Origin: Verrucomicrobiota bacterium
Lineage (GTDB): Bacteria > Verrucomicrobiota > Verrucomicrobiia > Limisphaerales > UBA1096
DNA length: 56,867 nucleotides
Direction: 5' to 3'
Assembly (NCBI GenBank): GCA_014382705.1
Contig: JACNJE010000129.1
Coordinates: 1-56,867 of the forward strand
Under the pieces are notes generated by a model. The model had not been told where the DNA came from and did not search any database. It worked only from the letters and a program-made list of their open reading frames with translations. Below, one piece after another: positions 5,694 to 38,068 of the stretch (its first letter is position 1; each line of letters starts with the position of its first letter). The position numbers and the translations under genes were made by a program.

Positions 5694-8099
5694 ATGAGAC
5701 CTTCGCGAAATATACCGACGTTCCGGCTGGCCCGGACAGGGGCAGCCGGCTTGCTGATGTTGGTTTGCGTGTCGACCACTTCGCAGCCGGTTGGCCGGGC
5801 CGCCACGGCTCGTTCGGCGATCGAGTTGCAGGGGCTGCACGCCTACGCGGATCGCGAGAGCGTGCCGGCCGGGGAGACCCTCCGGTTTCATGTCAGCAGC
5901 CAAGTGCCGTACCGATTCGGGGTCTCGCGGCTGGGATTGCGGGTGGATGACCGGGCGAGCGACGAAACCATTCTCCCGCCGAAAAAAGTGTTCCCCGCGC
6001 GCGTGCAGCCGATTCATCCGGGGTCGTATGTGCGGGTGAAAAACGGGTTGCCGGCCGACGCCGAGTTGACGGCGTTGACGCTTGAGTGCTGGGTGCGGCC
6101 TTGGAAACTTTCGCCGTGGCAGGGGATTCTCACCCAGCACGATTATCCCGACCGCTGCGGCTTTGGCCTGTTTTTGGATGCCGAGGGCCGGGCGGTGTTT
6201 TCGATCGGCTCGGGCGGTGCGTACGATGGCGAAAGCCTCGTCACCGGGACGAAGTTGAACCACCGTCAATGGCATTATCTTGTCGGAGTTTGGGACGGCG
6301 CAACCAAGACCGCCGCAGTCTGGGTGGACGGCAAACGCGCCGCCGAGTGGCGGGCACCGGACAACCTCCCGCCGCGACAGGCCGGGCCGGCCCAGTTGCA
6401 ACTCGGGGCGTACAGCGAACGCGGCGTGACCGGCCGTTTTTTCGACGGCGACATCGCGATGCCGGCGATCTACACGAGAGCGCTTTCGGGAGAGGAGATC
6501 GCCGCGCGCTTGGCCAAGCGCGGGCTGGTTGCGCCCATCGTGAACGACCCGGCGCTCGCCGCCTTTTGGCCGCTCGACGAGGAGCGCGGTGCAACCGTGG
6601 CGGACGCTTCCGGGCACGGCCGCGACGGCGAAATCGTCAATCTCGGGACGTGGATGATCGGTGGCCCGTCGTTCGACGGCGGCCGCGTCGGGCGTTACGA
6701 CACGGCTTACGATCCGCGAACCGACCCGAGCCGGGGACACGGCCTGCGCTTGGCCTCCGACGATCTTTACGACTGCGGCTGGGAGGCGACGGAGGTTTTT
6801 CGCGTTCCCCAAAACGCGGGAAGCGGGCTTTACGCGGCTTGGTTTCATTTTGAACTCGAGGGCAAACCGCATCGTTACCCCGTCACGTTTGTCGTCAACA
6901 AGGCCAAGCGCGCCGCCAAGGCGCCGCTCGCGCTGATGTGTTCCTCGACCACGTGGCGAGCCTACAGCGGAACGCCGTTTGCCAAAAATGTGCCGGACGA
7001 AACCCGAAACTGGCCCACCGGCGGGCAGGCCAACGACCCGGCGAATCCACCGGCGACCTGTTTTTACCGGGATCACGCGCACGGTCAGCCCACGTACAAA
7101 CTGGGGCTGCGGATGCCGTGGCCGGTGGCCGGGCCGGGCGTGCGTTACAGCGCGCCGGGTGTCGGGTATTCCCATCTCATGCGCGGCGAGCGGTTCACGC
7201 ACACTTGGTTGGAAAAACAGGGCTACGATTTTGACGTCATCACCAACCTCGACCTGCACCGCGACCCCGCGCTGCTCGACGGTTACAAGGCGCTCATTAT
7301 CAACGGCCACGACGAATATTGGTCCGCAAAAATGTACGACGGGCTGGATCGCTACCTGAAAAATGGCGGGGCGGCGGCGGTGCTGTCCGGCAACACCATG
7401 TTCTGGCGCATCTCGGTGGACGACGCGCTGGGCACGATCGAGTGCCGGAAATACGGCCCGAATATCGGCGGCCGGGCCTTGGCCAGCGTCGGCGAAATCT
7501 ACCACAGCGCCGACGGCAAACGCGGCAGTCTGATGCGCAACTGTGGCCATCCGCCGTGGCGAAACATCGGGCTGGAATGCAGCGGTTGGTGGGGCGGCGC
7601 AAACAATGGCGTTTACACCGTGGCAACACCGAAGCACTTTCTGTTTCAAAAACCGGAGCATGTCCGTTTCGCTGATCGTGTTGTGTTCGGCGGGGCGAAG
7701 AGCGGGCATCGTCGGGCCTGCGGGCACGAGGGCGACATTCGGCTCTCCTCCTACGCGCCGCCGACCGGCCCGATTCCGGCGGGGGCGTTTTTGCCAATCG
7801 AGCCGTCCGGCATCGAGACGATGGCAAGCCTCCAGCGCGACAACGCGCGTGTGCTCGATTATTTCGCCCGGTTCGGCCAGCAGAAAACCGGGACGCTGGT
7901 GGATATGATTTATTGGGAGCGCCCACAGGGCGGCAAGGTGTTCAACGCCGGTGCGATTGCCTTCGGTTGGGCGCTCGACGCCGACCCCAAGTTGGCGAAA
8001 CTGCTGCGCAATGTGCTGCACCACCTCGCCGGCGTGACCGCACGGACGCCGTACGATCCGCCATGGCTCGACCCGGACAATGAGACGAAAGGGCCTTGA
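5694..8099 (+). CDS. Exported LamG plus N,N-dimethylformamidase-like protein
   Basis: The 801-residue protein starts with a basic, hydrophobic leader (residues 1-38). A LamG/concanavalin-like domain spans about 110-280. The large C-terminal domain (about 330-790) resembles the beta-subunit catalytic domain of N,N-dimethylformamidase, including W-L-E-K-Q-G-Y-D-F-D-V-I-T, H-D-E-Y-W-S and S-G-N-T-M-F-W. Such fusions are found in environmental bacteria and their substrates are mostly unknown. An 18-bp palindrome at 6505-6522 encodes A-R-L-A-K-R-G at the LamG boundary. It follows the esterase by 23 bases, so co-transcription is likely. Confidence 0.75.
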   Translation: MRPSRNIPTFRLARTGAAGLLMLVCVSTTSQPVGRAATARSAIELQGLHAYADRESVPAGETLRFHVSSQVPYRFGVSRLGLRVDDRASDETILPPKKVFPARVQPIHPGSYVRVKNGLPADAELTALTLECWVRPWKLSPWQGILTQHDYPDRCGFGLFLDAEGRAVFSIGSGGAYDGESLVTGTKLNHRQWHYLVGVWDGATKTAAVWVDGKRAAEWRAPDNLPPRQAGPAQLQLGAYSERGVTGRFFDGDIAMPAIYTRALSGEEIAARLAKRGLVAPIVNDPALAAFWPLDEERGATVADASGHGRDGEIVNLGTWMIGGPSFDGGRVGRYDTAYDPRTDPSRGHGLRLASDDLYDCGWEATEVFRVPQNAGSGLYAAWFHFELEGKPHRYPVTFVVNKAKRAAKAPLALMCSSTTWRAYSGTPFAKNVPDETRNWPTGGQANDPANPPATCFYRDHAHGQPTYKLGLRMPWPVAGPGVRYSAPGVGYSHLMRGERFTHTWLEKQGYDFDVITNLDLHRDPALLDGYKALIINGHDEYWSAKMYDGLDRYLKNGGAAAVLSGNTMFWRISVDDALGTIECRKYGPNIGGRALASVGEIYHSADGKRGSLMRNCGHPPWRNIGLECSGWWGGANNGVYTVATPKHFLFQKPEHVRFADRVVFGGAKSGHRRACGHEGDIRLSSYAPPTGPIPAGAFLPIEPSGIETMASLQRDNARVLDYFARFGQQKTGTLVDMIYWERPQGGKVFNAGAIAFGWALDADPKLAKLLRNVLHHLAGVTARTPYDPPWLDPDNETKGP
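6505..6522. repeat. 18-bp in-frame palindrome copy
   Basis: CGCGCTTGGCCAAGCGCG encodes A-R-L-A-K-R at the end of the LamG domain, about residues 271-276 of the surrounding protein. Confidence 0.9.
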
Positions 8100-32406: not shown

Positions 32407-33786
32407 ATGGCCATCAAGATCGACCGCAAACTGACGCCGCAAAAACTCGTTCCCAAACTGGAACGATTCTTTGAGCTTTCCGGGCAAAAGATTTTGTCCA
32501 TCCAAAAAAAATGGCGTGCGGCCAACGGTACGCCGGTGTTCACCGTGAACGGCCAATACACCACGCGCGGCTGGACCGAGTGGACGCACGGCTTTCAGTT
32601 CGGCTCGGCCGTGCTGCAGTACGACGCCACCGGCGACGAGCGGTTTTTGAAGATCGGCCGGCGTGGCACGGTGAAGCACATGGCGTCGCACGTGTCGCAC
32701 ACCGGCGTGCACGATCACGGTTTCAATAACGTCTCGACTTACGGCAACCTCCGCCGCCTCATGCGCGAGGGAAAGATTGTCCACGACCCGCGAGAGATGG
32801 AGTTTTACGAACTGGCGCTCAAGGTCTCCGGCGCCGTACAGGCGGCGCGCTGGACCGATATTCCCGGCGGCGGCTACATTTATTCGTTTAACGGCCCGCA
32901 CTCGTTGTTCATCGACACGATTCGCTCGCTGCGCTCGCTCGCCGTGGCGCACCAGCTTGGCCACGCGCTGATGGGTGAGCGGGATCGGAAAATCTCACTG
33001 CTCGGCCGGCTCGTGCAGCACGCTGGGGCGACAGCGGCGCACGGTGTTTATTACGGCGAAGGCCGCGACGCATTCGACGTGCGCGGCCGCACGGCGCACG
33101 AGAGCATTTTCAACCTGAACGATGGCAGTTACCGCTGCCCGAACTCGCAGCAGGGCTACTCCCCGTTCAGCACGTGGACGCGCGGCTTGGCTTGGGCGGT
33201 CTGCGGCTATGCCGAGCAGCTCGAGTTGTTCCGCACGCTCACCGATGCCGCGCTCAAGCCGTTCGGGGGCAGGCACAAGTTGACGGCCATGCTGCTGAAG
33301 GCGGCCACTGCCACCGCCGATTTTTACGTCAGCAACAGTTGCACCGACGGCGTTCCCGCTTGGGACACCGGTGCACCGAAACTGCACCGTCTGGGCAACT
33401 ACTTGGCCAAGCGCTCGGAGCCGTGCAACGACTTCGAGCCGGTCGACTCTTCTGCAGCGGCGATCGCGGCGCAGGGGCTGGTCCGCTTGGGCAATTTCCT
33501 GAAAAATAGCGGCAAAAAAGCTGACGGCACGCGCTACCGGCAGGCCGGATTGACCATCGCCAACACCTTGCTGCAGGAACCGTATCTCTCCACGGATGCC
33601 AAACATCAGGGTCTGGTTTTGCACTCGGTTTATCATCGGCCCAACGGCTGGGATCACATCCCGCGCGGCCGCAAAATCCCGTGCGGCGAAAGCTCGATGT
33701 GGGGCGACTACCACGCGCGCGAACTGGCGCTGATGCTCCTCCGCGAGGCGCGCGGCGAATGCTACCTCACGTTTTTCGACTACTGA
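32407..33786 (+). CDS. GH88/GH105-like alpha/alpha-toroid glycoside hydrolase
   Basis: The 459-residue protein resembles unsaturated glucuronyl hydrolases. It has the C-terminal G-E-S-S-M-W-G-D-Y-H-A-R-E motif, V-P-A-W-D-T-G-A-P and repeated helical hairpins. It lacks a signal peptide and so is cytoplasmic. GH88 enzymes hydrate the unsaturated uronate at the end of oligosaccharides made by lyases. A palindrome encodes Y-L-A-K-R-S. The reductase next to it could process a released keto-sugar; this is inference. Confidence 0.75.
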   Translation: MAIKIDRKLTPQKLVPKLERFFELSGQKILSIQKKWRAANGTPVFTVNGQYTTRGWTEWTHGFQFGSAVLQYDATGDERFLKIGRRGTVKHMASHVSHTGVHDHGFNNVSTYGNLRRLMREGKIVHDPREMEFYELALKVSGAVQAARWTDIPGGGYIYSFNGPHSLFIDTIRSLRSLAVAHQLGHALMGERDRKISLLGRLVQHAGATAAHGVYYGEGRDAFDVRGRTAHESIFNLNDGSYRCPNSQQGYSPFSTWTRGLAWAVCGYAEQLELFRTLTDAALKPFGGRHKLTAMLLKAATATADFYVSNSCTDGVPAWDTGAPKLHRLGNYLAKRSEPCNDFEPVDSSAAAIAAQGLVRLGNFLKNSGKKADGTRYRQAGLTIANTLLQEPYLSTDAKHQGLVLHSVYHRPNGWDHIPRGRKIPCGESSMWGDYHARELALMLLREARGECYLTFFDY

Positions 33787-33793
33787 GCTGACT

Positions 33794-35275
33794 GTGCCCA
33801 AGCCGTTCAAACTCACGCGCGTCCCGTCGTTAAAAACTCCGGAAGCTTTCCGCGAACACGCAGCGACGCTTGGCCTCGACCTGCCGTGCGACGACACGAT
33901 CCTGCCCGCTGCCGAGTCGCCCTTGGCCAAGCCGCTCGAGCGCGTTACGCTTGGCGGCAAGACGCCCGGCAACCGCATCGCCATTCACCCGATGGAGGGC
34001 TGGGACGGCACGACGAGCGGCGGGGTCACCGACGAGATGACACGCCGCTGGCAACGCTTCGGCGAAAGCGGGGCCAAGCTGATCCTCGGCGGCGAGGCGA
34101 TGGCGGTGCGCCCCGACGGTCGAGCCAACCCGAACCAACTTATTCTCAACGAAGAAAACCAAGCCGGCATCGCCGGGTTGCGCGAGACGTCGATTGCGGC
34201 GCACGCCGCACGCTACGGCTCGACCGAGGACTTGGTGACCGGGTTTCAGTTGACGCATTCGGGACGCTTCTGCCGACCGAATGAGAAAACCAGATTCGAG
34301 CCGCGAGTCGCGTATCGGCATCCGATACTCGACGCGAAGTTCAACGTCACCAGCGACGACCAAACTTGGACCGATGACGAGATCGGCGAACTCATCGGCA
34401 GCTACGTCCGCGCTGCGCGGCTCGCCGCCGGGGCAGGGGCGGACTTCGTCGACCTCAAGCATTGCCACGGCTATCTGCTGCACGAATTTCTCAGCGCCCA
34501 CACGCGCCCCGGCCGGTACGGCGGCTCGTTCGAGAACCGCACCCGAATCCTGTGCGAAATCATCGACGGCATCCGCGCCGACGGGAACACCATCGATGTG
34601 ATCGTGCGAGTGAGCGCGTTCGACTTCGTGCCGTTCCGGGCTGATCCAACCCGGGCGCAGCCGGGCAAACTCGGCCCCGGCGTCCCGGAGGATTTCTCCC
34701 ACTGCCTTCCGTATCACTACGGTTTCGGGCTGAATCCCAATAACCCGCTCGAGGTCGATCTCACGGAGCCGCAGCAGTTTGTGAAACTGTGCGGCGCCTT
34801 GGGTGTCAAGCTCGTGAGTCTCAGTGCTGGGTCGCCGTATTACAATCCCCACATCCAGCGTCCCGCCGCATATCCGCCGTCGGACGGCTATCAGCCGGCG
34901 CACGATCCACTCATCGACGTCGAGCGGCAGGTTCAAGTTGTCCGCCAAATCCGCGAAGCCGCACCCGCCAACCTCGCGATCGCCGGGTGCGCCTACAGTT
35001 ATCTGCAGGATTATTTGCCGCACGTGACGCAGCGCCTCGTGCGGGAAGGGTGGGTCGATGTCGTCGGATTGGGTCGGATGGTTTTGAGTTATCCGGACAT
35101 GCTCCCCGACGCGATGGCCAACGGCGCGCTGACGCCCAAGCGCATCTGCCGCACATTCAGCGACTGCACCACCGCCCCGCGCAACGGCATCGTCAGCGGC
35201 TGCTACCCGCTGGACGACTACTACAAAAACCGTCCCGAGTCCGATCAGCTCAAGCAGATCAAAAAATCGTTTTAG
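33794..35275 (+). CDS. NADH:flavin oxidoreductase (Old Yellow Enzyme family)
   Basis: The 493-residue FMN-dependent TIM-barrel protein is recognised by I-A-I-H-P-M-E-G-W-D-G, L-T-H-S-G-R-F, and H-C-H-G-Y-L-L-H-E-F-L-S (the usual active-site strand). It is longer than typical single-domain members (about 360-400) by an N-terminal extension and internal loops. The GTG start at 33794 is 7 bases after the GH88-like stop. The palindrome encodes S-P-L-A-K-P. Its substrate is not predictable; reductions of activated C=C bonds or demethylation are family options. Confidence 0.82.
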   Translation: MPKPFKLTRVPSLKTPEAFREHAATLGLDLPCDDTILPAAESPLAKPLERVTLGGKTPGNRIAIHPMEGWDGTTSGGVTDEMTRRWQRFGESGAKLILGGEAMAVRPDGRANPNQLILNEENQAGIAGLRETSIAAHAARYGSTEDLVTGFQLTHSGRFCRPNEKTRFEPRVAYRHPILDAKFNVTSDDQTWTDDEIGELIGSYVRAARLAAGAGADFVDLKHCHGYLLHEFLSAHTRPGRYGGSFENRTRILCEIIDGIRADGNTIDVIVRVSAFDFVPFRADPTRAQPGKLGPGVPEDFSHCLPYHYGFGLNPNNPLEVDLTEPQQFVKLCGALGVKLVSLSAGSPYYNPHIQRPAAYPPSDGYQPAHDPLIDVERQVQVVRQIREAAPANLAIAGCAYSYLQDYLPHVTQRLVREGWVDVVGLGRMVLSYPDMLPDAMANGALTPKRICRTFSDCTTAPRNGIVSGCYPLDDYYKNRPESDQLKQIKKSF

Positions 35276-35291: not shown

Positions 35292-36251
35292 GTGATCGTT
35301 CACCATAGCCAGTTCCCTGTCTCCGTGCAGCGGCAGTTGCTCGATGCGCTTCGGCTTGGCCAGGTGCCGCCCAGGTTTTTGTACGACGGCGATCGGCAAA
35401 CGCAAAAGTGGCTTGCGGTGCACCGGGCGCATTCGCCGTCGCGGATCGATGCCGGCGTGCAGTCGATTTACGAGCAAGCGTTTGACGCGTCGCTTGGCCA
35501 AGCAGCGGGCGAGTCGGCTTGTCTCGTTGGCCTGGGTTGCGGCGGCGGGCAAAAGGACACCCGCTACTTGGCCAAGCTGAAGTCGATTTATTCGACGATC
35601 GATTACGTGCCGTGCGATGTCAGCCAAGCGATGACGCGGGTGGCGCGAGAAGCGGCGGCGGCGGAGTTGCCGCTCGAACGAATCCACCCGTTCGTGTGCG
35701 ACTTGGCCAACGCGCCCGACCTTGGCCAAGCGCTCGACGGAATCGTGTCGCCGGAAACCAAGCGCGTGTTCACCTTCTTCGGGATGATCCCAAACCTCGA
35801 GCCGGCCGTGATCCTGCCGCGCTTGGCGGCGCTGCTACGGGAAGGCGACCGGTTGCTGCTCAGCGCCAACCTCGCGCCCGGCGACAATTATCGAAACGGC
35901 GTCGAGACGGTGCTGCCGCAATACGACAACACCGAGACGCGCGCTTGGCTGCTGTCGTTTCTCGAGGGAATGGGAGTGTCGCCGGCTGCGGGCCAACTGC
36001 GATTTGGCATCGAGGAGGTGGACGGATTGCTGCGGATCGTCGCCAACTTCAAGTTTTTGAACACGGTTCGATTGAGAGTCGCCGACGAGTCGGTCGAGTT
36101 TGCCGCCGGGCGTTCGTTGCGTCTCTTTTACTCCTACCGCCACACCGAGCAGACCTTGGCCAAGCGCTTGGCCAAGCACGGCCTTGCCGTCGCCGACTCG
36201 GAGATTGACGCTTCCGCCGAGGAGGGGGTGTTTCGCGTGGAGTGGGTTTAG
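35292..36251 (+). CDS. EgtD-like amino-acid N-methyltransferase
   Basis: The 319-residue protein has the EgtD fold signature: the SAM motif G80-L-G-C-G-G-G86, T-F-F-G-M-I-P-N168-L-E-P, and the C-terminal domain S-L-R-L-F279-Y-S281-Y-R. EgtD trimethylates histidine for ergothioneine. The EgtD Glu and Ser that contact the imidazole (E282, S284 in the mycobacterial enzyme) align by eye to Phe279 and Ser281, so the substrate may differ. No egtB or other ergothioneine gene is adjacent. Five palindrome cores fall in frame, the most of any gene. Its stop overlaps the convergent ClC stop by 4 bases. Confidence 0.75.
   Translation: MIVHHSQFPVSVQRQLLDALRLGQVPPRFLYDGDRQTQKWLAVHRAHSPSRIDAGVQSIYEQAFDASLGQAAGESACLVGLGCGGGQKDTRYLAKLKSIYSTIDYVPCDVSQAMTRVAREAAAAELPLERIHPFVCDLANAPDLGQALDGIVSPETKRVFTFFGMIPNLEPAVILPRLAALLREGDRLLLSANLAPGDNYRNGVETVLPQYDNTETRAWLLSFLEGMGVSPAAGQLRFGIEEVDGLLRIVANFKFLNTVRLRVADESVEFAAGRSLRLFYSYRHTEQTLAKRLAKHGLAVADSEIDASAEEGVFRVEWV
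36155..36176. repeat. Two palindrome cores fused into a 22-bp palindrome
   Basis: Two CTTGGCCAAG cores are joined by CG, giving a perfect 22-bp palindrome that encodes T-L-A-K-R-L-A-K-H in frame. Confidence 0.92.
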
Positions 36252-38068
36252 CTGTCGCCGTATTCCTCCTGGCGGATTTCGCCGATGGCGTCGGAGTAGG
36301 CCTTGAAGATGTTGCCCTCGGGGATGACGCCGACGAGCTTGAGGTGATCCTTGGCACTGACGACCGGGACGCTTTCGCCGACGAACTCCTCCACTTTCTT
36401 CATCGCCGCAAAAATCGAGGTCATGTCGGTGAGCGTGATCTGCTCGTGCTGCGCGAGGTCGCCGACGGCAGGATCGTCCTGCGCCGGGTTGCGTTGAATC
36501 TGCAGCAACTCGTTGAGGGTCACCTGGCCAAGGTAGGTGTCCGTTTCGCTGACGATATAGCCTTCCGTCTGGTCGGCGGCGAGCAGGCGGTCGAGCGCCT
36601 GGCTGCAGCGGGACTCGGGGGTAATCTTTACGAAGTCGTGGGTCACGTAGTCGTGGATGGTCTTTTGCTGAAGCACGACCTTGTCCTTGCCGAGCGAGAA
36701 GTCGAAGCCGCGCGCGAGTAGTTGCACGTCGAAGAGCGACCGGCCGAAGAGCCGCGAGCAGATGATGTTGGAAAACACGACGCTGATGAGCACCGCCTTG
36801 GCCAAGTCGTAGTTTTCCGTCAGCTCGAACACGACGAGGATGGTCGAGATTGGCGCGCCGATGACGGCGCTGGTTACCGCGCCCATGCCGCAGATCGCGT
36901 AAAACGAGAGGTTCAACGGGCCGGGCACCATCGCCTCGAGCGCGAGTCCGAACAGCGCGCCAAACGTTGCCCCGATAAACAGCGCCGGGCTGAACACGCC
37001 GCCGCCGAACCCCATCCCGAGGCAGAAGCCGGTCATCACCGACTTGCCGAGGCACAACACGGCGAGCAGCAACAGTGCCTTAAGCACAAACTCCTTCGCG
37101 CCGATGACCGAGTCCATCGTCGTCATGCCGATGATGTAATCGAGATTACCGCTGCGCACCTGCTCGATGTTGAGGGTGGCCTTGGTGGTTTCCAGTCCCG
37201 CCCCGAGCAACTCCGGCACGGCGAGGCAGACGAGGCCAAGCACCAGCCCAGCCAGCGGCGGCTTGGCCCAGAGCGGCAGCATGAGCTTGCCGGCGAGTTT
37301 GCCGGACAGGATCACGCCGCGCATGTAAAAGAGTGCCACCGCCGCGCCCACCACGCCAACCAGCAGGAACGCACCGTACTCATAAGCGTGCTGAACGCTG
37401 ACCTCCCCGACCTCGAGCAGTCGCGGTCTTGCGAACACCTCCGTGGCCATCACCTGGCTGACGTAGGCGGAGATGGTCACCGGTGCGAAGGCGCGGATGG
37501 AGTAGTGGCGCAGGATGACCTCGTGCGCGAAAATGACGCCGGCGATCGGCGCGTTGAACGCGGTTGAGATGGCCGATGACACGCCGCACGCGACCGCGAT
37601 CACGCCCAAGCGCCGGTGATCCGCCGTGACCTTGGCCAGGAGCGAGCCGACAAACGCGCCGAGGCTGGCCAACGGGCCATACATGCCGACCGACGCGCCG
37701 AAGCTGATCGAGGTGAAGTTGGTGAGCGTGGTTAACAGGCCGGTGCGAGCCGGGATTTTGCTGCTGCCGGTTTGCGCCGCGAAGATGATATCCGGAATGC
37801 CGTGCGGCCGGTTGCCCCGGAGGAGCATCAGCAGTCCTCCGACGATGAGTCCGCCCACGACCGGGGCCAGCACCGTGAACCACGGGAGCAGCTTGGCCAC
37901 GCCGTCGCCGGTGCGAGCGTGGGGCGCAATGAACAGCTTGTCGTTAATCCACGCGATGCCCTCGACGAATGCCTCCGACGCGATCGACGCCATCAGGCCA
38001 ATGAACGCCGCCAGCCCGAAGGAGATCAGGAAGCGTTGAGGGGAGTAGTTCTTGAGCCAGCGAGTCAT
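36248..38068 (-). CDS. ClC-family chloride channel/transporter with C-terminal CBS domains
   Basis: The 606-residue membrane protein has the ClC core (about residues 1-450) and two CBS-like domains (about 470-600). Selectivity motifs are P-H-G-I-P (first), G-M-Y130-G-P (second) and G-G-G-V-F-S-P (third). Most ClC transporters have a gating Glu where Tyr130 is, and an internal proton Glu where Val follows H-E here. This suggests a passive channel or altered coupling. A GxYGP subgroup is known to me in other bacteria. It is 29 bases downstream of moxR and may be co-transcribed. Confidence 0.87.
   Translation of the reverse strand: MTRWLKNYSPQRFLISFGLAAFIGLMASIASEAFVEGIAWINDKLFIAPHARTGDGVAKLLPWFTVLAPVVGGLIVGGLLMLLRGNRPHGIPDIIFAAQTGSSKIPARTGLLTTLTNFTSISFGASVGMYGPLASLGAFVGSLLAKVTADHRRLGVIAVACGVSSAISTAFNAPIAGVIFAHEVILRHYSIRAFAPVTISAYVSQVMATEVFARPRLLEVGEVSVQHAYEYGAFLLVGVVGAAVALFYMRGVILSGKLAGKLMLPLWAKPPLAGLVLGLVCLAVPELLGAGLETTKATLNIEQVRSGNLDYIIGMTTMDSVIGAKEFVLKALLLLAVLCLGKSVMTGFCLGMGFGGGVFSPALFIGATFGALFGLALEAMVPGPLNLSFYAICGMGAVTSAVIGAPISTILVVFELTENYDLAKAVLISVVFSNIICSRLFGRSLFDVQLLARGFDFSLGKDKVVLQQKTIHDYVTHDFVKITPESRCSQALDRLLAADQTEGYIVSETDTYLGQVTLNELLQIQRNPAQDDPAVGDLAQHEQITLTDMTSIFAAMKKVEEFVGESVPVVSAKDHLKLVGVIPEGNIFKAYSDAIGEIRQEEYGDS

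Follow-up and report, generated by a model that had tools for sequence, protein, structure and literature searches.

The window, that is, the whole stretch of 56,867 nucleotides analysed here, belongs to a genome of 4.0 Mb (91% complete). At 35292-36251 it holds a frame open over 319 codons, from a GTG start at 35292 to a TAG stop ending at 36251, which encodes a stand-alone protein of 319 residues, the sole match to PF10017 in this genome (at E 0.001). Its nearest relatives in the genome collection are found in metagenome-assembled Verrucomicrobiota, including Pedosphaera sp., Limisphaerales and Verrucomicrobia subdivision 3 (22 loci). The gene and the three genes preceding it are as follows, with the counts referring to loci L001-L015:

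31576-32403, forward strand: SDR-family reductase (PRK12745, 324.3 bits, cut-off 250); in 13 of 15 loci (L002 and L004 do not extend this far)
32407-33786, forward strand: weak GH88-like protein (PF07470, 20.4 bits, below the cut-off of 26.6); in 14 of 15 loci (L002 does not extend this far)
33794-35275, forward strand: NADH:flavin oxidoreductase of the old yellow enzyme family (PF00724, 93.4 bits), 16 bases upstream of the methyltransferase gene; in 15 of 15 loci (in L002 its end only)
35292-36251, forward strand: EgtD-like SAM-dependent methyltransferase of the Phe-type clade, 319 aa

The order of these four genes is kept in the window's clade and the gaps between them in the window measure 3, 7 and 16 bases, so that the genes from the SDR to the methyltransferase are probably co-transcribed in this clade. 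A ClC chloride channel gene (36248-38068, reverse strand) adjoins the methyltransferase gene. By tblastn it is near full length in the window, L004, L005, L007, L008 and L011, and yields fragments or no match in L001, L002, L003, L006, L009 and L010; it looks as if it had been lost repeatedly at one place.

Residues 60-307 of the methyltransferase score 54.5 bits with PF10017 (Methyltransf_33), above the gathering cut-off of 23. The EgtD equivalog model TIGR03438 gives 50.7 bits against a curated cut-off of 290.9, a model with which eight EgtDs detected across the order and the phylum reach 383-421 bits. At the sequence level the protein resembles EgtD only distantly (phmmer E 3e-5), with approximately 23% identity over the structural alignment. 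The predicted structure (mean pLDDT 91.2, pTM 0.89, built with 17 sequences) retrieves EgtD chains at ranks 1 to 15 in Foldseek, with a best E of 2.7e-20, followed by CcbJ as the next family (E 5.7e-12). A second structural aligner places 297 of the 319 residues on 4uy6, the EgtD structure with bound histidine and SAH, with Z 30.9 and an rmsd of 2.5 Å; here AzeJ is the next family (Z 17.0). The match of the predicted model is thus full-length and includes the substrate-binding part. The complete EgtD architecture is therefore predicted, beyond the common SAM domain alone. The Phe-type enzymes are filed as an EgtD-like, non-EgtD clade inside PF10017. The initial annotation had described an EgtD homologue with one changed residue. 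The exchange itself and the lack of EgtB are borne out, but the low identity and the bit score far under the EgtD cut-off mark the protein as a distant relative.

The residues on which the comparison with EgtD is based are the following; row counts are taken from the alignments described below.

35382-35384, forward strand: Tyr31, equivalent to EgtD Tyr39 (Y in 66 of 67 Phe-type rows, the other reading X, and in 9 of 9 EgtDs)
35409-35411, forward strand: Trp40, at the place of EgtD Phe47 (W in 67 of 67 Phe-type rows, F in 9 of 9 EgtDs)
35430-35432, forward strand: His47, at the place of the carboxylate contact Tyr56 of EgtD (H 32, Y 27, C 4, F 4, L 1, W 1 of 69 Phe-type rows)
35529-35549, forward strand: SAM-binding motif I, GLGCGGG, residues 80-86 (invariant in 17 aligned rows; pairs with EgtD Gly86 and Gly88)
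35616-35618, forward strand: Asp109, equivalent to EgtD Asp113 (67 of 67 Phe-type rows, 9 of 9 EgtDs)
35781-35795, forward strand: GMIPN motif, residues 164-168, with Asn168 equivalent to EgtD Asn166 (N in 67 of 67 and 9 of 9)
35922-35924, forward strand: Tyr211, equivalent to the carboxylate contact Tyr206 of EgtD (67 of 67 Phe-type rows, 9 of 9 EgtDs)
36042-36044, forward strand: Ala251, at the place of EgtD Met252, the second residue changed in 4pip (Ala in 55 and Met in 0 of 69 Phe-type rows; Met in 3 of 3 EgtDs)
36126-36128, forward strand: Phe279 (codon TTT), at the place of EgtD Glu282 (phmmer, profile search, two MAFFT alignments)
36132-36134, forward strand: Ser281, equivalent to the carboxylate contact Ser284 of EgtD (67 of 67 Phe-type rows, 9 of 9 EgtDs)

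The central feature of the protein is Phe279. It pairs without a gap with Glu282 of EgtD, which we take to be the residue recognising the imidazole of histidine, in phmmer and in the family profile searched against the PDB as well as in two MAFFT alignments of 72 and 78 sequences, although the C-terminal phmmer segment that holds it is weak by itself (2.9-3.5 bits). The numbering is fixed by the column itself, where the chains of 4pim and of the M252V,E282A mutant 4pip differ as E versus A. The substitution goes beyond chance: phenylalanine occupies this place in all 69 Phe-type rows of the 72-sequence alignment and in all 67 of the 78-sequence alignment; 59 of the latter are distinct, since eight row pairs are identical over the compared core. 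In the close-relative alignment it is found in 22 of 23 rows, L014 stopping short of the position. Glutamate, in contrast, is present in 9 of 9 model-confirmed EgtDs of the 78-sequence alignment. The assignment made by eye in the initial annotation therefore holds, and the glutamate whose presence would have spoken against it appears in none of the Phe-type rows. A distant PF10017 protein elsewhere in the phylum (L109, 1489-2151, reverse strand), on a very long branch, carries alanine at this place and possibly represents a third pocket type.

These readings refer to the aligned rows rather than to every genome with a match, and L101-L105 lie outside them. The 72-sequence alignment omits L029-L032, L034 and L035, which are the same genes as L088, L089, L090, L095, L091 and L092, and L036-L039, the same genes as L093 and L094. 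The 78-sequence alignment additionally omits L027 (identical to the window), L093 and L094 (the genes of L107 and L106) and the Phe-type L089, which equals L095 in 310 of 321 aligned residues. Both are built without the close relatives L001-L011 (except L008) and L014.

The part of the site that would hold the amino acid head group is well preserved. According to PMC8593015, M. tuberculosis EgtD binds the carboxylate through Tyr206, Ser284 and Tyr56 and the alpha-amino group through Asn166, with Tyr39 in contact with the alpha carbon. All 67 rows retain Asn166, Tyr206 and Ser284, as Asn168, Tyr211 and Ser281. Of the carboxylate contacts, Tyr56 is the one not preserved, being His47 in the window. 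The initial annotation was right that the serine is kept; since Ser284 contacts the carboxylate, a conserved Ser281 favours a retained amino acid head group, not a retained imidazole site. In the SAM motif, Gly82 is kept in 65 of 67 Phe-type rows of the 78-sequence alignment and Gly84 is kept too. PMC9103826 names Asn166 and Gly161 of EgtD as critical for successive methylations; a glycine is present as the counterpart of Gly161, with the adjoining one-residue gap placed differently in the two alignments.

The side-chain part of the pocket is remodelled. Besides Phe279, Trp40 and Ala251, the Phe-type enzymes have methionine (Met165 in the window, 57 of 67 rows) at the place of EgtD Thr163 (threonine in 9 of 9). 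Near Ala251 and Met165 the alignment is less sure than near Phe279, with a gap by Gly164 placed differently in the two alignments. The two types are also separated by the columns of Pro167/EgtD Gly165 (66 of 67 Phe-type rows) and Asp89/EgtD Thr93 (60 of 67), and those of Asn213/EgtD Asp208, Thr216/EgtD Asn217, Arg283/EgtD Lys286 and Glu311/EgtD Phe314 likewise separate Phe-type rows from the nine EgtDs. Judged from these residues, the side-chain side of the pocket looks uncharged, hydrophobic or aromatic, and such a pocket would select amino acids of the same character. A hydrophobic lining does not by itself fix the identity of the substrate.

Regarding ergothioneine, tblastn detects no EgtB in the window, and no match over the TIGR03440 cut-off is found in the window genome (91% complete), in line with the earlier observation that no partner gene lies nearby. 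Three weak matches in the genome (21-43 bits against a cut-off of 360) likely reflect a shared FGE-type domain, and a role in ergothioneine synthesis through a distant EgtB was rejected on the same values. Among 167 genomes of the order, 102 match TIGR03438 at E 0.001 and five do so over the cut-off (G391, G458, G488, G509 and G544); EgtB exceeds its cut-off in the same five. All five also match the Phe-type profile strongly (E 2.6e-138 or better), the residue reading covering one of them, G458, whose L064 is Phe-type. EgtB directly adjoins EgtD in 8 of 8 scanned loci, and a tblastn search with one of these EgtBs matches no Phe-type locus, the sole exception being L079, where the match is weak and partial (E 3e-5). 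Two enzymes are thus maintained in the order: EgtD, which is rare and accompanied by EgtB, and the Phe type, which is common and mostly occurs without EgtB. The occurrence of EgtD, EgtB and the Phe type together in five genomes provides the strongest indirect support for the Phe-type enzyme being a separate paralogue, distinct from the histidine methyltransferase that works with EgtB.

It could still be supposed that the Phe-type enzyme methylates histidine and recognises the imidazole in some other way, given the EgtD-like fold and head-group residues, with hercynine going to an EgtB-less pathway such as that of EanB. This is improbable in view of the invariance of Glu282 in the EgtDs, the coexistence of EgtD with the Phe type in all five genomes of the order with an EgtD over the cut-off and the lack of an EgtB over the cut-off in the window genome. 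Moreover, E282 and M252 are, by the title of PDB entry 4pip, the residues changed in an EgtD variant crystallised with tryptophan; a tryptophan variant of EgtD is also mentioned in PMC9103826.

In an unrooted maximum-likelihood tree of 78 rows, the 67 Phe-type rows fall on one side of a branch with support 96/96, and the ten Glu-type rows (the nine EgtDs and a Streptomyces match) on one side of another (100/98); many inner forks of this tree are unsettled and several rows are long-branched. Of the 293 genomes sampled from the order, 194 contain a match to the Phe-type profile, in a few cases a weak one (down to E 4.6e-5); among the 154 better genomes the count is 104. Across the phylum sample, matches occur in 11 of 387 genomes, two of these weakly through an EgtD. 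Four gene pairs give dN of 0.108-0.126, dS of 0.47-0.59 and dN/dS of 0.21-0.25, a fifth pair being saturated; neutral decay of the gene is unlikely, because dN lies well below dS in these four pairs. A search of viral contigs returned 34 pattern matches and no confirmed relative. The single match in the plasmid search, on a Streptomyces replicon (26.8% identity), was rejected as a Phe-type relative since it carries glutamate at the Glu282 position, clusters with the EgtDs and lies close to an EgtB-like gene; a mobile or viral origin was set aside with it. In the literature search, no paper joining EgtD with Verrucomicrobia was found, and queries by Pfam and DUF names returned nothing on the Phe-type clade among the matches listed.

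Outside the window's clade the gene surroundings are different. The flavoenzyme and GH88-like genes are found in 0 of 32 Phe-type loci there, some of which have short flanks. A DHPS-like paralogue is convergent with the Phe-type gene in 12 of these 32 loci, spanning at least seven families (in L070, at 6924-7856 on the reverse strand), and a SCO1-like gene is present in nine. In family f5 (L089, L090, L091, L092 and L095), the Phe-type gene and an SDR gene are transcribed divergently, the latter followed by riboflavin synthase, in 5 of 5 flanked loci; the SDR of L095 fits a dihydropteridine reductase model best, at 205.9 bits and under the cut-off of 325. The window genome has a DHPS-like paralogue on another contig (C169; L118, 8526-9410), which scores 119 bits, is 59% identical to the L070 neighbour and is distinct from the canonical FolP that is also present (335.5 bits). 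Neighbours vary by subclade and name no pathway, and a pterin link of the Phe-type enzyme is a weak lead.

These neighbours bear on the main rival explanation, according to which the acceptor is a larger or different amine (a peptide N-terminus, lipid head group, thiol, cofactor or pterin intermediate) in an EgtD-like cleft. The convergent DHPS-like genes and the f5 loci with riboflavin synthase and an SDR (which in L095 resembles dihydropteridine reductase below the cut-off) are compatible with it, as is the loss of Tyr56 in many rows (H 32, Y 27, other residues 10 of 69). The presence of the gene in most sampled genomes of the order would, furthermore, resemble housekeeping more than secondary metabolism. 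On the other hand, Asn168, Tyr211 and Ser281 are invariant in the aligned rows, the pterin-type neighbours lie on the opposite strand and may simply preserve an old gene order, and in the window genome the DHPS-like gene is located on another contig. On balance, a larger or different acceptor is considered doubtful, but it deserves more weight than histidine.

A further rival acceptor is the cysteine amine of bacillithiol. As stated in PMC6282198, NmbA is a SAM enzyme needed for methylation of this cysteine amine; the likeness of the Phe-type enzyme to NmbA/CT1040 as an N-methyl-bacillithiol synthase is one of description, not of sequence. BshC, which is required for bacillithiol, was detected in none of 167 genomes from the order, against 3 of 14 control genomes over the cut-off, and PMC6282198 also lists Verrucomicrobia as lacking a documented or predicted low-molecular-weight thiol. 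The relation was set aside on the absence of BshC, which makes bacillithiol methylation so unlikely that hardly any credence is given to it.

Collectively, the evidence somewhat favours a SAM-dependent N-methyltransferase for a non-histidine amino acid, or an amino-acid-like amine, whose head group is held as in EgtD. The gene would encode an active class I enzyme built throughout like EgtD. Its substrate, an alpha-amino acid or something closely mimicking one, would have its amine and carboxylate held EgtD-like by Asn168, Tyr211 and Ser281, with Tyr31 sitting near the alpha carbon, and methyl groups would move from SAM onto the held amine. Because Glu282 is replaced by phenylalanine and the pocket is remade by Trp40, Met165 and Ala251, the substrate is expected not to be histidine and would most likely be an amino acid whose side chain is uncharged, hydrophobic or aromatic. 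The product would then be an N-methylated amino acid or betaine; another amino-acid betaine, as the initial annotation had proposed, appears plausible from the residues of the site. From this same body of evidence we infer the activity, the amine as acceptor, the substrate class, the number of methyl groups and the physiological role.

On a broader level, it can be put forward tentatively that most bacteria of the order use a dedicated EgtD-fold enzyme to produce an N-methylated amino acid that has yet to be described (a betaine distinct from hercynine), with a role as a solute, in redox chemistry or in signalling. More boldly, the product could be part of a missing thiol, a role conceivable because of the thiol gap in Verrucomicrobia noted in PMC6282198, or of an undescribed pterin- or flavin-linked pathway if the pterin-type neighbours are meaningful. 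If the favoured reading is true, nature itself has altered both positions that were altered in engineered EgtD, and a methylated amino acid that has gone unrecognised is produced by an order known mainly from assembled genomes. Phe-type genes match EgtD models weakly, and similarity alone could mislabel them as ergothioneine genes; the Glu/Phe position offers a simple rule for sorting EgtD from the Phe type. The clade-wide evidence lifts the interest of the locus beyond that of a single changed residue.

Among known systems, the EasF family (TIGR03439) gives a weak match of 15.5 bits (E 0.006), far below its cut-off of 205.55. Fungal methyltransferases forming aromatic amino-acid betaines (Vit et al. 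2015) reportedly belong to the EgtD family too and act on aromatic rather than imidazole substrates; the Phe-type clade is bacterial and is likened to them by description only. It is the pocket residues that would point to N-methylation of Trp, Tyr or Phe. As for the engineered M252V,E282A EgtD of 4pip, which reportedly prefers tryptophan, the two altered positions are naturally Ala and Phe in the window enzyme. Phe279 is bulky where the engineered residue is a small alanine, and the specificity of the tryptophan variant is therefore not transferable. With EgtD itself (TIGR03438; 4pim, 4pio, 4uy6), the L-histidine N-alpha-methyltransferase, the Phe type shares the full-length fold, the SAM motif and the equivalents of Asn166, Tyr206, Ser284 and Tyr39. 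In contrast to EgtD, it has Phe for Glu282, Ala for Met252, Trp for Phe47, Met for Thr163 and Arg for Lys286, and the window enzyme is found without EgtB, scores far below the EgtD cut-off and represents a separate clade and paralogue.
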